DNA of 35,867 nucleotides from Candidatus Martarchaeota archaeon (GTDB lineage Archaea; Micrarchaeota; Micrarchaeia; Micrarchaeales; CABMGC01), in assembly GCA_023379055.1 (NCBI GenBank), contig JAMCSX010000017.1, forward strand, positions 1 to 35,867, in the 5' to 3' direction. The notes under the pieces are model-generated. The model saw nothing but the letters and a program-made list of their open reading frames with translations. It made no database searches and was not told the DNA's origin. Shown here piece after piece: positions 3 through 26,236 of the stretch (the stretch's first letter is position 1; each line of letters begins with the position of its first letter). A program made the translations under genes and the position numbers.

Positions 3-71
3 TCTGCACCTCAAAAGGAGGCTGCAAGCAGGATCGTTGAATCAGGAACTACACTTGGCGTTTCACGATGA
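3..71 (+). pseudogene. tnpB: 3' end of a probable TnpB (IS200/IS605 family) ORF entering from outside the window
   Basis: Frame 3 reads SAPQKEAASRIVESGTTLGVSR* and stops at TGA 69-71, immediately inside the right-end-like element; a degenerate copy of the tail (IVAPGLG..LGVSR*) precedes the second element copy. Whether the gene is intact cannot be seen. Confidence 0.45.
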
Positions 72-127
72 CCAATCAAAAAGACACCATTGGAAGCCCA
101 CGCCGTTTACGGGTGGGAGGAAGTCAC
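60..127 (+). mobile_element. IS200/IS605-type right end / TnpB omegaRNA 3' scaffold-like element, copy 1
   Basis: GATGACCAATCAAAAAGACACCATTGGAAGC + hairpin CCCAC(G)CCG-TTTA-CGG-GTGGG + GAGGAAGTCAC; nearly identical flanks to copy 2 at 24770-24836 with a different but paired stem. Confidence 0.65.
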
Positions 128-13520: not shown

Positions 13521-13937
13521 CTACGCACCCTTGATTGTCTCATTTGAGAGCTTGTCGAGAAAAGATTTGCCTGCAGAAGTCACGATTCTTCCCTGCCTGG
13601 TCTGCTTCAGGTACCCTTTATTCTCAAGTGCATCAAACGCATCTTTTATTATGGAGCCTCCTGCTCTCACGTGGTGGTGCCTGCTTACTACATGACCTTT
13701 CTTGCTACCATAGAGCGTCCTAAGCCGCGATATGCCTATTGGACCCATTAGATACACGTGCCTGAGTATTGAGGCACATCGGGTATACCAGAAATCCTCA
13801 CTCTGCGGTACCCTTTCCCTTCCAGCCCCACTCTTCACGTATAGCACATATGCAGGTCTTGCGATGCCAGATTCCTTCAGTCTCAACGCCGCAAGAGCTA
13901 TGAGCTTTGCCGGATCAGATTCCAATACGTTTGCCAT
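13521..13937 (-). CDS. rps19e: 30S ribosomal protein S19e
   Basis: ERVPQSEDFWYTRCASILRHVYLMGPIGISRLRTLYGSKK...VRAGGSIIKDAFDALENKGYL. Confidence 0.93.
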   Translation of the reverse strand: MANVLESDPAKLIALAALRLKESGIARPAYVLYVKSGAGRERVPQSEDFWYTRCASILRHVYLMGPIGISRLRTLYGSKKGHVVSRHHHVRAGGSIIKDAFDALENKGYLKQTRQGRIVTSAGKSFLDKLSNETIKGA

Positions 13938-14342: not shown

Positions 14343-16109
14343 ATGAAGAGTGGGATACGCATACTTGCACTTGATGATTCAAGAATAAATAGGATGGAAC
14401 GCACTAACCTTATCGTAGGCGTTGTAGGCCGCAAGGGGATGGTGGAAGGTGTGCTGTCGTTCAGGGTTGGTATAAACGGAGATGACGCAACGGATGGCAT
14501 AATAAATTCAGTAAGATCGTCCAGATTCATTGATCAGATAAGACTGATTGCAATAAACGGCACGACATTTGCCGGCATGAACGTTATTGATATTGGAAAG
14601 ATAAGATCCTCACTCGGTGTGCCGGTAATCGGGATTACCAGAAAGAAGCCGCACCCATCATTGCTTAGGAAGAGTATAGGTGCTGCGGATATCACTGGCA
14701 AGAAGGAAAAGGCAGCAATAATAGGCAGAATCGCAAAACAGGCTGCATTGGATAGGTTTCGGGGTTTCTATGTGCAGCGCATAGGGATTGAGGCAACGCA
14801 GGTGGAGAGATACATTGAAAGTTCAACTGCACTGCTCAGGCTTGCGCACATGATTGCAAGCGGAGTAACAGGCAGCGAATCGAGGGGAAGGGTGCCGCAG
14901 AGTGAGGATTGGTTTGGGAGGGTAATTAGGCTTATAGACACATACAGTGACGAAGCGATAACCACGATGTCGAACATGATACCGATTAAGGCAATATCGC
15001 CAATGAGCGGCGGAGAGGGCGAGCTGAAAAGGGCCGAGTTTCTGGAAGGAATTCTGAAGACCTGGGGCCTGCGGCCGAGGCGCCATGACTATACAGACAG
15101 CACGGGGACGGTGAGGCCGAATATAGTCTCAGTGTTCGGGGATTCTGACAGGACTATCTGGTTCGTAGCGCATATGGATACGGTGTCAGAGGGTGACAGG
15201 TCATTATGGAGGACAGAGCCATTCATCGCAACAGTAAAAGGAGATAGAATTTACGGGAGGGGTGCCGAAGACAACGGGCAGGGAGTCGTCACAGCAATAT
15301 ACGCACTTAGGGCGCTTAAGGAATCCGGCGCAAAACCTAAGTATAACTTTGGGCTGATGCTGGTGGCCGATGAGGAGGTAGGCAGCAGGTTTGGGATGCA
15401 GAAGCTAATGAAAGAGGGAATAATCAAGCAGGGGGACCTTGCGGTGGTCCCTGATTATGGAATCGAAGACGGTTCGCAGATAGAGATAGGCGAAAAGGGC
15501 ATGTTGTGGCTTAAGGTAACGGTAACTGGAATGCAGGCACATGCAAGCGAACCTGAAAAGGGAAGGAACGCATTCAGGTATTCTGCCGCGTTTGTTGGAG
15601 AGGTTGATGATCTTCTTCACAGAAAATATGCGGCTGTTGACAGTCTCTTCAACCCAAGCAGGTCAACGTTCGAAATGACGAAACATGAGAAGAATGTTGA
15701 TAGCATTAACATAATACCCGGCACTGATATCTTCTATATTGACTGCAGGGTCCTGCCGCAGTATAAGCTTGACGATATTGTGTCTGATGTAAAGTCCGTT
15801 GCTGCATCACAGAAGTTCTTCGAAGTCAAGATAACTATAGATACCTTTAACAGGGAGGATCCTGCACCAATAACTAATGCTGATTCGGAGATAGTACGTC
15901 TGCTGAAGGACTCGATTAAGGAATTGCGCAACATTGACGCTGGGACAGTTGGGATAGGAGGAGGCACATGTGCAGCGTTTACCAGAAAGGCCGGAATACC
16001 TACTGCCGTATGGTCAACGCATACTGACTGTGCGCATCAGCCCAACGAATCCATAAGGATAGGCGAAATTATGGGCGATGCAAAGGTATTTGCACGCCTT
16101 GTACTCTGA
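14343..16109 (+). CDS. fusion protein: N-terminal DUF99 + C-terminal M20 family metallopeptidase (DapE/ArgE-like)
   Basis: N-half DUF99-like (ILALDDSRINR..LIVGVVGRKGMVEGVLSFRVGINGDDATDGI...LLRLAHMIASGVTGSESRGR); C-half M20 motifs FVAHMDTVSEGD, GRGAEDNGQG, VADEEVGS, HTDCAHQPNESI. One uninterrupted frame. Confidence 0.88.
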   Translation: MKSGIRILALDDSRINRMERTNLIVGVVGRKGMVEGVLSFRVGINGDDATDGIINSVRSSRFIDQIRLIAINGTTFAGMNVIDIGKIRSSLGVPVIGITRKKPHPSLLRKSIGAADITGKKEKAAIIGRIAKQAALDRFRGFYVQRIGIEATQVERYIESSTALLRLAHMIASGVTGSESRGRVPQSEDWFGRVIRLIDTYSDEAITTMSNMIPIKAISPMSGGEGELKRAEFLEGILKTWGLRPRRHDYTDSTGTVRPNIVSVFGDSDRTIWFVAHMDTVSEGDRSLWRTEPFIATVKGDRIYGRGAEDNGQGVVTAIYALRALKESGAKPKYNFGLMLVADEEVGSRFGMQKLMKEGIIKQGDLAVVPDYGIEDGSQIEIGEKGMLWLKVTVTGMQAHASEPEKGRNAFRYSAAFVGEVDDLLHRKYAAVDSLFNPSRSTFEMTKHEKNVDSINIIPGTDIFYIDCRVLPQYKLDDIVSDVKSVAASQKFFEVKITIDTFNREDPAPITNADSEIVRLLKDSIKELRNIDAGTVGIGGGTCAAFTRKAGIPTAVWSTHTDCAHQPNESIRIGEIMGDAKVFARLVL

Positions 16110-20828: not shown

Positions 20829-22124
20829 ATGCTAACAACCCGTTACATAAAGGAGAACCTCGATGCCATAAGAAAGTCGATGGCAAAGAGAAAGAGCGAT
20901 TACCCTGTAGACGAGCTTCTTGGGCTTGAGGATAAGTCAAAAAAGCTTGAACTGGAATTGCAGGACCTTCGGTCGCAGCGCAATAAGGGCAGTCTTGCCG
21001 TGGCCGAGCTCAAAAAATCGAAGAAAGATGCCTCGAGGGAAATAGAGGGACTGGCATCAGTAAAGAAGAGGATAGGCGAGATGGAGGCCGAGATCCCGAA
21101 GTATCGGGACAGGATAGATGGGATACTGTGGAATATGCCCAACACACTCCAGGAATCCGTTCCGTATGGCAAGGACGACACTGAAAACATAGAGATAAAG
21201 AAAGTCGGGAAAATACCTGAAAGGAAGCCTTCAATGGGACACGAAGAGGCGCTTACAAGGCTTGGACTGCTGGACATAGAGCAGGCGTCAAAGGTTTCCG
21301 GTGCAAGATTCTTCTACCTTAAAGGCGATCTTGCTTTGCTTGAGCAGTCACTGATACATTTCTCCATATCTGAACTTACAAAGAGGGGATATACCCTCGT
21401 GGCGCCGCCAATGATGATGCGAAAAGAGTACTACCGCGGGGTTACTGCACTTAGCGACTTCCAGGAGATGCTCTACAGAGCAGGAGAATCGAAAGAGGCA
21501 GAATCGGACAAGGATGCAGAGCATGTGGATGATGGCCTGTTTATGATAGGAACATCAGAGCACCCGCTGGCAGCCCTTCATGCTGACCAGGTATTCTCCG
21601 CAAAGGATCTGCCAAAGAAATACATAGGATTTAGTCCGTGCTTCAGGCGGGAAGCTGGCGCGCATGGAAAGGATACCAAGGGCATATTCAGGGTGCACCA
21701 ATTCTATAAGGTGGAACAGTTCATATTCTCAAACCAGGATTCGTGGCATTTCTTTGACGAATTGATTGCAAATTCCGAAGATCTGTTCAGTAAGCTTAAT
21801 CTGCCTTACCGCGTAGTGAATATATGCACTGGGGATATAGGCACTGTTGCAGCGAAGAAATTTGATCTTGAGGTATACATGCCAGCCCAGGAAAGGTATA
21901 GGGAGATGGTCTCATGCTCGAACTGCACCGATTGGCAGGCAATGCGGCTGAACATAAGGTATGACGAAGGCGGCGAGAGGAGATATGTGCACACGCTGAA
22001 TTCAACTGCAATAGCCACGAACAGGACCTTGGTTGCAATTGTGGAGAATTACCTTAACGAAGACGGTTCGATAACAGTCCCTGATGCACTTGTGCCTTAC
22101 ATGGGCAAGGACAGGATAAGGTAG
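20829..22124 (+). CDS. serS: seryl-tRNA synthetase
   Basis: N-terminal coiled coil, class II motifs (FSPCFRREAGAHGKDTKGIFRVHQFYKVEQF; LNSTAIATNRTLVAIVENY). Start probably ATG 20829. Confidence 0.95.
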   Translation: MLTTRYIKENLDAIRKSMAKRKSDYPVDELLGLEDKSKKLELELQDLRSQRNKGSLAVAELKKSKKDASREIEGLASVKKRIGEMEAEIPKYRDRIDGILWNMPNTLQESVPYGKDDTENIEIKKVGKIPERKPSMGHEEALTRLGLLDIEQASKVSGARFFYLKGDLALLEQSLIHFSISELTKRGYTLVAPPMMMRKEYYRGVTALSDFQEMLYRAGESKEAESDKDAEHVDDGLFMIGTSEHPLAALHADQVFSAKDLPKKYIGFSPCFRREAGAHGKDTKGIFRVHQFYKVEQFIFSNQDSWHFFDELIANSEDLFSKLNLPYRVVNICTGDIGTVAAKKFDLEVYMPAQERYREMVSCSNCTDWQAMRLNIRYDEGGERRYVHTLNSTAIATNRTLVAIVENYLNEDGSITVPDALVPYMGKDRIR

Positions 22125-23641: not shown

Positions 23642-24679
23642 CTACATGATCCCAGATGCCTTGAGCGCCAGACCGAGTATTACAAAAAACGCCTCAAATG
23701 CTACCAGATAGGCAGTTACCTCATATTCCCGCAGTCTTCGCATATTCATCACTGCATGCGTAAGGCTGTATATTCTGCCCCCGTAGGGAGCCCTGAACGT
23801 GCCGTCCTTCCGCCTTATGCCCAGGTCTGTGACATTAAATCTTTTTCTTAGGTGAAGAAAGAACTCGATTATCCAAGGTATGAATATTATTATTCCGAAT
23901 ATCTCCGCGTTTCCCATAACCATTATGGCAACCATCGCGCCCCCCGCAGTATACGTAAAGCTGTCTCCTGGCATTATCCTCGCTGGATATGTGTTAAAAG
24001 GGGTAAACATAAGTATAGATACAAACAGAAGCGCAGAAAGCAGAAACCCCATATAATTGCCGTAGAACAGCGAGTATACAAGCATGCCAAGGCTTGCCAT
24101 AAGCGTCATTCCGGGCTGGAGCCCATCAAAACCCCCAAGAAGGTTTACCGAATTGGATACGAACACCACTGCAAGAGGTATCACTATCAGGGGATAAATG
24201 TACCCCAAGGTCACTGTACCGAGGAACGGAACACTTATCTGATGGACACCGGCATTAATTGCCATGAGTGGAAGCGCGCCAAGAAGCGTGAGGATTGGCT
24301 TTTGCCATTGCTTCAGGCCCTTCCGTATATCCTTCCTATCCGTAGACTGCACGCGCGTTGCCTTTACATTTATATCATCAAGAAATCCAACGAACGCTAT
24401 CAGTATTATGGAAAGGGCAACAGCAAGAAGCCTTGAGACACTGAGCGCAGATGTGAAAATAAAGCGGGCGCCAAAAGTATACGAGAGCATGCCTACTATT
24501 ATTCCGAGTGCAACTGCAAGCCCTCCGCTGCTCGGTATTCTCACAGTTTTTTTCTTGTTCCTGTCTTCGGCAATGACGCCTGCATCATAGAAATATGACA
24601 TGAGAAACTTTGTCGTGATTAGCGTAACTATAAGGCTTATCGCCGAAGGCACAAGTACTGTAAGGTAAGTGTCGTACAT
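23642..24679 (-). CDS. MraY/WecA-family (GT4) UDP-sugar-1-phosphate : polyprenyl-phosphate transferase
   Basis: Multi-TM; RIPSSGGLAV, GFLDDINVK, NSVNLLGGFDGLQPG, NTYPARIMPGDSFTYTAGG. Confidence 0.9.
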   Translation of the reverse strand: MYDTYLTVLVPSAISLIVTLITTKFLMSYFYDAGVIAEDRNKKKTVRIPSSGGLAVALGIIVGMLSYTFGARFIFTSALSVSRLLAVALSIILIAFVGFLDDINVKATRVQSTDRKDIRKGLKQWQKPILTLLGALPLMAINAGVHQISVPFLGTVTLGYIYPLIVIPLAVVFVSNSVNLLGGFDGLQPGMTLMASLGMLVYSLFYGNYMGFLLSALLFVSILMFTPFNTYPARIMPGDSFTYTAGGAMVAIMVMGNAEIFGIIIFIPWIIEFFLHLRKRFNVTDLGIRRKDGTFRAPYGGRIYSLTHAVMNMRRLREYEVTAYLVAFEAFFVILGLALKASGIM

Positions 24680-24719: not shown

Positions 24720-24769
24720 CAACTACTTGCAGTGGTAAGATTGTGGCTCCTGGTCTCGGTAGCTAGGTG
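24720..24769 (+). pseudogene. degraded remnant of a TnpB C-terminus
   Basis: Reads KIVAPGLGS then, after a frame change, LGVSR*, parallel to RIVESGTTLGVSR* at 3-71. Confidence 0.35.
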
Positions 24770-24836
24770 TTTCAAGATGACCAATCAAAAAAGCACCATT
24801 GGAAGCCAACGACCTTCAGTCGTTGGAGGATGTCAC
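24770..24836 (+). mobile_element. IS200/IS605-type right end / omegaRNA scaffold-like element, copy 2
   Basis: GATGACCAATCAAAAAAGCACCATTGGAAGC + perfect 8-bp hairpin CCAACGAC-CTTCA-GTCGTTGG + AGGATGTCAC; matches copy 1. Confidence 0.65.
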
Positions 24837-24898
24837 AACCATGCGAATGTATCGAAGAAGCCAAAGGTTTTATAATTGAAATCTGTCAATTGGTATTC

Positions 24899-26236
24899 AT
24901 GTACAGCAAGGAACTCATCGATCTCTTCAAGGGACTTGGCATAAACATAGGGGATGCAGTAAGGGTATCTGGCTCTGGCGATGTCCAAGAGGGCATACTC
25001 ATGCCCCGCGCAGATGTTGGCGACAGCGACGTAATAGTGATAAAGAGGAAGGACGGGTACAATATAGGCATACGGTTCAATAAAGAATCGAGGATTGAGA
25101 GGGTATCTCCGGGGCATCCGGGAAATTTCCTGTTTCCAAAGTTGGACACTGGAACAAATAAGTCACTTAAGCCCATTGCCATGCTCTATACCGGTGGAAC
25201 GATAGGAAGCAAGGTTGACTACGTATCAGGAGGCGTATATATGCTTACAAAGCCTGAAGAGCTGCTCTCAGAGGTTCCGGAGCTCCAGGACATAGCAAAT
25301 ATAGATATAAGCAACCTGATGAGCATAGCAAGCGAAGATATGACGTATGTGGAATGGCAGAAAATTGCGGAGAAGGCTGCAGACGCCCTTAACAAAGGAG
25401 CCAATGGGATCGTGATAACGCATGGCACTGACACAATGCATTATACCTCTGCAGCACTCAGTTTTATGCTGAAGGGCCTAAATGCGCCAGTGGTCCTTAC
25501 AGGCGCGCAAAGGAGCAGCGACAGGGGATCGAGCGACGCTTTCATGAATCTGATCTGCTCGGCATACGCAGCTTCAAGGAGCGATATTGCGGAGGTAGGC
25601 GTATGCATGCACAGTGCAAGTTCAGACTCTACAGACTCGTTCATACGGGGGACAAAGGTGCGCAAGATGCACACGTCGCGCAGGGACGCGTTCAGGCCAG
25701 TAAACAATCTCCCCATATGCGAGATAGATATAAAGGGCAACATAAGGTATCTCAGCGAATACAAAAAAGTATCCGAAGAGAAGAAAAAGGTTGAGCTGGT
25801 GTCCGGATTTGAGCCGAAGGTTGCACTGATCAAAGCATATCCGAACTCCGATCCCGAGGTAATAGACTACTATCTGGGCAAGGGATATAAGGGAATAGTA
25901 CTGGAAGGAACCGGACTAGGCCACGTCCCTTCATCCCCGAGCATCAGGGAGTTATCATGGATAAGCCATGTAAAATCTGCAGTTGATTTCGGGATGGTTG
26001 TTGGTGCAACATCACAATGCATTTATGGTAGGGTGAACGAAAGCGTGTACAGGAATCTTAGGCTGCTGCATGGAGCTGGCGCAATATACTGTGAGGATAT
26101 GCTTCCTGAGGTTGCATACGTCAAGCTCGGCTTTTTACTGGGCAATTATGGCGCAGACAAGGCAAAAAGGATGCTTAATGCAAACATTGCCGGGGAGATA
26201 ACGGAAAGGACAGAGCTCGATTTTGCAATGGAGTGA
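24899..26236 (+). CDS. gatD: Glu-tRNA(Gln) amidotransferase subunit D
   Basis: Asparaginase-like: IAMLYTGGTIGSKVDY, ITHGTDTMHYTSAALSF, TGAQRSSDRGSSDA; followed by gatE. Start ATG 24899. Confidence 0.95.
   Translation: MYSKELIDLFKGLGINIGDAVRVSGSGDVQEGILMPRADVGDSDVIVIKRKDGYNIGIRFNKESRIERVSPGHPGNFLFPKLDTGTNKSLKPIAMLYTGGTIGSKVDYVSGGVYMLTKPEELLSEVPELQDIANIDISNLMSIASEDMTYVEWQKIAEKAADALNKGANGIVITHGTDTMHYTSAALSFMLKGLNAPVVLTGAQRSSDRGSSDAFMNLICSAYAASRSDIAEVGVCMHSASSDSTDSFIRGTKVRKMHTSRRDAFRPVNNLPICEIDIKGNIRYLSEYKKVSEEKKKVELVSGFEPKVALIKAYPNSDPEVIDYYLGKGYKGIVLEGTGLGHVPSSPSIRELSWISHVKSAVDFGMVVGATSQCIYGRVNESVYRNLRLLHGAGAIYCEDMLPEVAYVKLGFLLGNYGADKAKRMLNANIAGEITERTELDFAME

Follow-up and report, generated by a model that had tools for sequence, protein, structure and literature searches.

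A probable 5'-truncated relic of an IS200/IS605-family TnpB-type insertion upstream of gatD in a Micrarchaeota genome

The window, that is, the whole stretch of 35,867 nt analysed here, contains two related copies of a right-end sequence, one at the start of the contig (copy 1) and the other, on the gatD strand, between the promoters of gatD and of a divergent glycosyltransferase gene (copy 2). The features discussed below are as follows.

3-71, plus strand: C-terminal end of the tnpB of copy 1, cut by the contig start (95% over 22 aa)
54-127, plus strand: copy 1, type-B right end with its tnpB cut off by the edge of the contig (match to copy 2 and to the profile)
23642-24679, minus strand: glycosyltransferase family 4 gene (PF00953), divergent neighbour of copy 2
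24763-24836, plus strand: copy 2, 3'-terminal piece of an IS605/TnpB element of type B, with the right end and the last five tnpB codons (homology)
24763-24780, plus strand: tnpB stub LGVSR-stop (sequence; homology ends upstream of the stub)
24766-24797, plus strand: stem P2, 24766-24772 paired with 24791-24797 (RNA fold; compensatory changes in relatives)
24802-24805, plus strand: GAAG, putatively the right guide sequence (GR) used by TnpA, as it precedes the hairpin in the way described for IS608 (PMC5934647)
24806-24826, plus strand: right-end terminal hairpin CCAACGAC-CTTCA-GTCGTTGG (RNA fold and family covariation)
24833-24836, plus strand: TCAC, putative right cleavage site (CR) by the IS608 code and family-conserved end of the element
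24837-24856, plus strand: 3' flank in the would-be guide position (single occurrence in the genome)
24899-26236, plus strand: gatD, neighbour of copy 2 (GatD_N and asparaginase domains)

About 55 nt upstream of copy 2 is an AT-rich stretch that resembles a promoter. By eye, the segment directly upstream of gatD (24862-24898) is similar to the same region in other members of the genus, and copy 2 is hence situated upstream of an apparently intact gatD promoter region. This bears on the idea that copy 2 is a domesticated regulatory element or leader of gatD, to which its position between two divergent promoters and its orientation on the gatD strand would be suited; nonetheless, the genus-like stretch separates copy 2 from gatD, and in the syntenic relatives G006 and G007 this divergent gene pair occurs without the fragment, so that we regard a role in gatD regulation as most improbable. 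Elsewhere in the window, a 28-nt inverted repeat (13793-13820 and 14883-14910) is 93% complementary, with its arms 1062 nt apart.

Copy 2 and copy 1 are 81% identical over 74 nt without gaps, and outside the terminal hairpin they agree at 47 of 53 positions when counted by hand. The observation in the sequence-only reading that there are two copies with different but paired hairpins, both of which fold, was thus borne out, as was its recognition of a TnpB/IS605-type right end and omega-RNA tail with no tnpB of its own; indeed, copy 2 shares 96% identity (query 63-136) with the right end of L002, a copy that does carry tnpB, and matches a 192-nt omega-RNA profile at positions 121-192 only (E 3.5e-19). 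The limits of the unit had to be redrawn, however, since homology starts at about 24763 and not at 24720. Also, of the supposed frame-broken trace of the TnpB C-terminus, only LGVSR-stop (24763-24780) is homologous; everything upstream of it, including IVAPGLG, falls away, as the segment 24700-24762, when aligned with the 3' end of tnpB, does not outscore shuffled sequence (p about 0.6-0.9). The argument against a protein from the different reading frames of the two copies was uninformative, because it relied on extended ORF calls (68-775 and 24767-26236).

The repeat family of copy 2 occupies 16 places in its own 862-kb genome at E<=1.1e-8, plus further partial ones, and copy 2 is accordingly not the second of only two copies. 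A covariance-model search of the kind that the sequence-only reading had proposed, with a model built from 24 members and E-values that are rough, gave hits in 45 of the 61 genomes of a Micrarchaeota group that were searched, its own genome included; in an exact-pattern scan, the named genomes hit were all Candidatus Micrarchaeota, among them the complete Candidatus Micrarchaeum sp. A_DKE. The element gave no match in Rfam at gathering thresholds. Most members of the family adjoin the 3' end of a tnpB gene whose stop codon lies 57-61 nt short of the element's end, and this association is the one characteristic of IS200/IS605 right ends, which are found with tnpB or Y1 tnpA. In the intact type-B representative L050, TnpB is 401 aa long when counted from the first methionine, carries the OrfB_IS605, HTH_OrfB_IS605 and Cas12f1-like TNB domains, and matches solved TnpB structures, including that of ISDra2 TnpB, with E about 4e-56. 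The outcome that the sequence-only reading had named as damaging to itself, namely only two copies and no tnpB association, was therefore not encountered; a multicopy, tnpB-associated occurrence supports the family and not a function of copy 2.

The ends of these elements can be read against the code of IS608, in which the left cleavage site TTAC pairs with the left guide AAAG and the right cleavage site TCAA with the right guide GAAT (PMC5934647). The family right end reads GAAG-hairpin-AGGATG-TCAC, while left ends read TTAT followed by the element with AAAA before the hairpin in type B, and TTAA followed by the element with AAAT before the hairpin in type A. Read by eye and with no statistical score, each end obeys the IS608 code including the matching fourth letter, which identifies the copies as IS200/IS605 right ends; in copy 2 itself, a guide tetranucleotide 5' of the hairpin and a cleavage tetranucleotide 3' of it are likewise recognised by eye, unscored, as GAAG-hairpin-TCAC. 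Intact type-B relatives start after TTAT, carry tnpB and end in the right-end hairpin and GTCAC. At copy 2, no left end of an IS605 element was found and the left junction has no TTAT target motif, so that copy 2 is not a complete IS200/IS605 element with a left end after its target, and mobility is not expected of it. The suggestion that copy 2 is a non-autonomous mobile element (a PATE or MITE-like element) moved by TnpA in trans would draw on its complete right end and on the Y1 TnpA genes in the genome. Such elements have both ends and several copies with common boundaries, whereas copy 2 is a right end only, and no other copy in the genome shares its left boundary (of the 24763 type). With no left end and no TTAT, we consider this suggestion of the sequence-only reading very unlikely. 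Near the Y1 TnpA loci, a run of the covariance model R1 on those loci detected no right end of the copy 2 type.

Other TnpB-less copies present a different picture on the left side. At least 13 TnpB-less right-end tails begin immediately after TTAT, the target motif of intact type-B elements: L003, L005, L015, L004, L010, L013 and L016 in the own genome, and L056, L076, L170, L228, L229 (= L198) and L230 (= L217) elsewhere. With the junction marked by a slash, nine tails in seven genomes read TTAT/CAAT, and four, all in the own genome, read TTAT/GATGACC; these numbers do not represent an unbiased sample, for the classes were noticed only in hindsight and were in part sought by pattern. Several of the own genome's type-B copies read TTTCAC/GATGACC at the second point, where the right cleavage motif TCAC thus recurs internally. 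Possibly, TnpA cleaved the true left site together with a false right one (TCAC or TGAC), the donor was sealed, and the tail was left behind. Against such an excision scar, the commoner junction follows TGAC and not TCAC, and some left ends start with TTAT/CA, so that recurrent short-homology deletion could also have produced the tails. The tails of the own genome bear different hairpin alleles, which speaks against a single amplified mini-element. Copy 2 was considered as a TTAT-flanked tail of this sort and rejected, since its junction has no TTAT. A separate case, L018 (G000:C3, about 21312-21336), has a type-A left-end-like hairpin running straight into the right-end tail (GGTGGGAGGATGTCAC), looking like a fusion of the ends only.

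The terminal hairpin of copy 1, CCCAC(G)CCG-TTTA-CGGGTGGG, folds with z = -0.9 against shuffles, and that of copy 2 with z = -2.9. Among the 24 family members, two-sided changes were seen at seven of the eight pairs and affected 26 cells, compared with 9.9 in shuffles and far fewer in slid controls; judged from this covariation, the terminal-hairpin stem is truly conserved as a structure across the family. The second stem, P2, in which GGTG at the tnpB end pairs with CACC, has T-A to C-G changes in its core in three haplotypes, and two flanking pairs covary. The family thus has the conserved secondary structure of a TnpB omega-RNA in the terminal hairpin and P2, and copy 2 itself has no mispair in either of these 3' stems. 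CCAAT with ATTGG was tried as a further hairpin and discarded, with no two-sided changes and with pairing broken in several members.

The claim of a selected structure is supported for the family but not for copy 2. The copy-2-type hairpin also occurs in L002 and L050, and the copy-1-type in L031 and several others, all of them copies carrying tnpB sequence; because both versions occur in such copies, the covariation is no proof of selection on copy 2, and the difference between the two hairpins of the window appears to reflect pre-existing alleles rather than selection at this locus. The hairpin versions are common to TnpB types A, B and C in the own genome, so that exchange of end modules would be a simpler source of the difference than mutation and compensation at this site. 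When L031, L038 and L032 are set against L008, L007 and L002, the same three right-end hairpin versions are found behind types A, B and C, and this sharing suggests end-module exchange or a common TnpA.

How much of a guide-RNA scaffold remains in copy 2 was estimated from intact relatives. In 12 type-B tnpB ORFs, synonymous positions have an identity of about 0.4-0.7 through the greater part of the gene, but of 0.92-0.97 across most of the final ~40 codons, with the exception of one 10-codon block at an indel (0.62); identity is also high in the first seven codons. In a nucleotide profile of the final 190 nt, blocks of conservation begin at about position 36 (CTACC...CGGGAAGT, GGAGAC, AAGACC and RRGAAC). 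Together, these indicate an omega-RNA scaffold of ~155-175 nt. Copy 2 keeps the last ~72 nt; more than half is gone, including about 85 nt of the constrained 5' part, and the CDS-derived part is reduced to 18 nt. RRGAAC, present in 55 of 56 comparison copies, is absent from copy 2, as are the 5' hairpin and the GAGAC block, which pairs with the 3' end in the consensus fold. Copy 2 hence does not have the complete scaffold, with its CDS-derived part, of a TnpB omega-RNA.

These results weigh on the proposal that copy 2 is a stand-alone guide RNA, which would load a TnpB encoded elsewhere and target matches to 24837-24856. The terminal hairpin, P2 and GTCAC are intact in copy 2, and the genome has five full-length TnpB ORFs, all of other types than B. 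Type-B tnpB ends sit at contig edges (C1, C17 and C22) in the own genome, a draft that is 84.7% complete in 28 contigs and broken at these repeats; an intact type-B tnpB may thus be absent from the assembly. Nonetheless, the missing half of the constrained scaffold makes guide function unexpected: in SisTnpB7, with an RNA of ~176 nt, activity is sharply reduced when the CDS-derived part is shorter than 113 nt (PMC11043419). Moreover, the 20-nt flank 3' of GTCAC, for which a second match had been proposed as a check, has none in the genome, and thus no genomic target, at <=3 mismatches. A working guide at this locus is accordingly held to be highly unlikely. The own genome also encodes divergent TnpB-like proteins of other lineages (L037, L039 and L040), unlinked to this right end.

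Copy 2 is, in our view, very probably a 5'-truncated relic of an IS200/IS605-family, TnpB-type (type B) insertion, of a kind common in archaea, and most likely an ordinary and inert one. A former IS605/TnpB insertion would have been stripped, presumably after it had inserted, of all that lay 5' of the final five tnpB codons. What is left is probably neutral sequence lying between the two divergent promoters, and we expect it neither to be moved by TnpA nor to serve as a guide RNA. In intact relatives, the 3' region would be transcribed as the TnpB guide-RNA scaffold, the guide being the DNA just past GTCAC; here the TnpA and TnpB biochemistry of the family is presumed by analogy. At odds with the relic, besides the promoter-like stretch upstream, the TnpB-less tails L178, L141 and L186 also start near the base of P2 (profile positions 116-122), and together with the intact stems of copy 2 this could mean that this part is kept by something. 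The 74-nt tail might be a minimal TnpB-less guide or decoy RNA still binding a TnpB encoded elsewhere, which we think hardly probable; if true, short 3' omega-RNA fragments scattered through Micrarchaeota genomes would act in trans. With the relic preferred, a candidate stand-alone guide RNA is struck from the list. Structure conserved in a family and at a locus can be separated by seeking each hairpin version in tnpB-bearing copies and by measuring how far the constrained scaffold reaches. As a by-product, a Micrarchaeota TnpB element family is now described by its ends, its target motif and the extent of its omega-RNA.

Among known systems, the PATE-like element of Halanaerobium (PMC7290912) is, like copy 2, IS605-derived, without tnpA, and composed of the very end of tnpB and the right end; unlike copy 2, which has no left end, it is about 271 nt long with a 28-nt left end bearing a hairpin. 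IS200/IS605 elements of the IS608/ISDra2 type share with copy 2 the subterminal hairpin with a guide tetranucleotide before it (GAAG) and a cleavage tetranucleotide after it (TCAC), and share with its family the association with tnpB, intact relatives inserting after TTAT or TTAA; copy 2 differs in having neither left end nor target motif. Compared with the omega-RNA/reRNA of TnpB from ISDra2 and Sulfolobus islandicus (TnpB7), copy 2 has about 72 of ~155-175 nt and no tnpB, whereas the overlap with the tnpB 3' end and the conserved (T)CAC end followed by the guide position are alike, and in the intact relatives the total length of the scaffold is similar as well.
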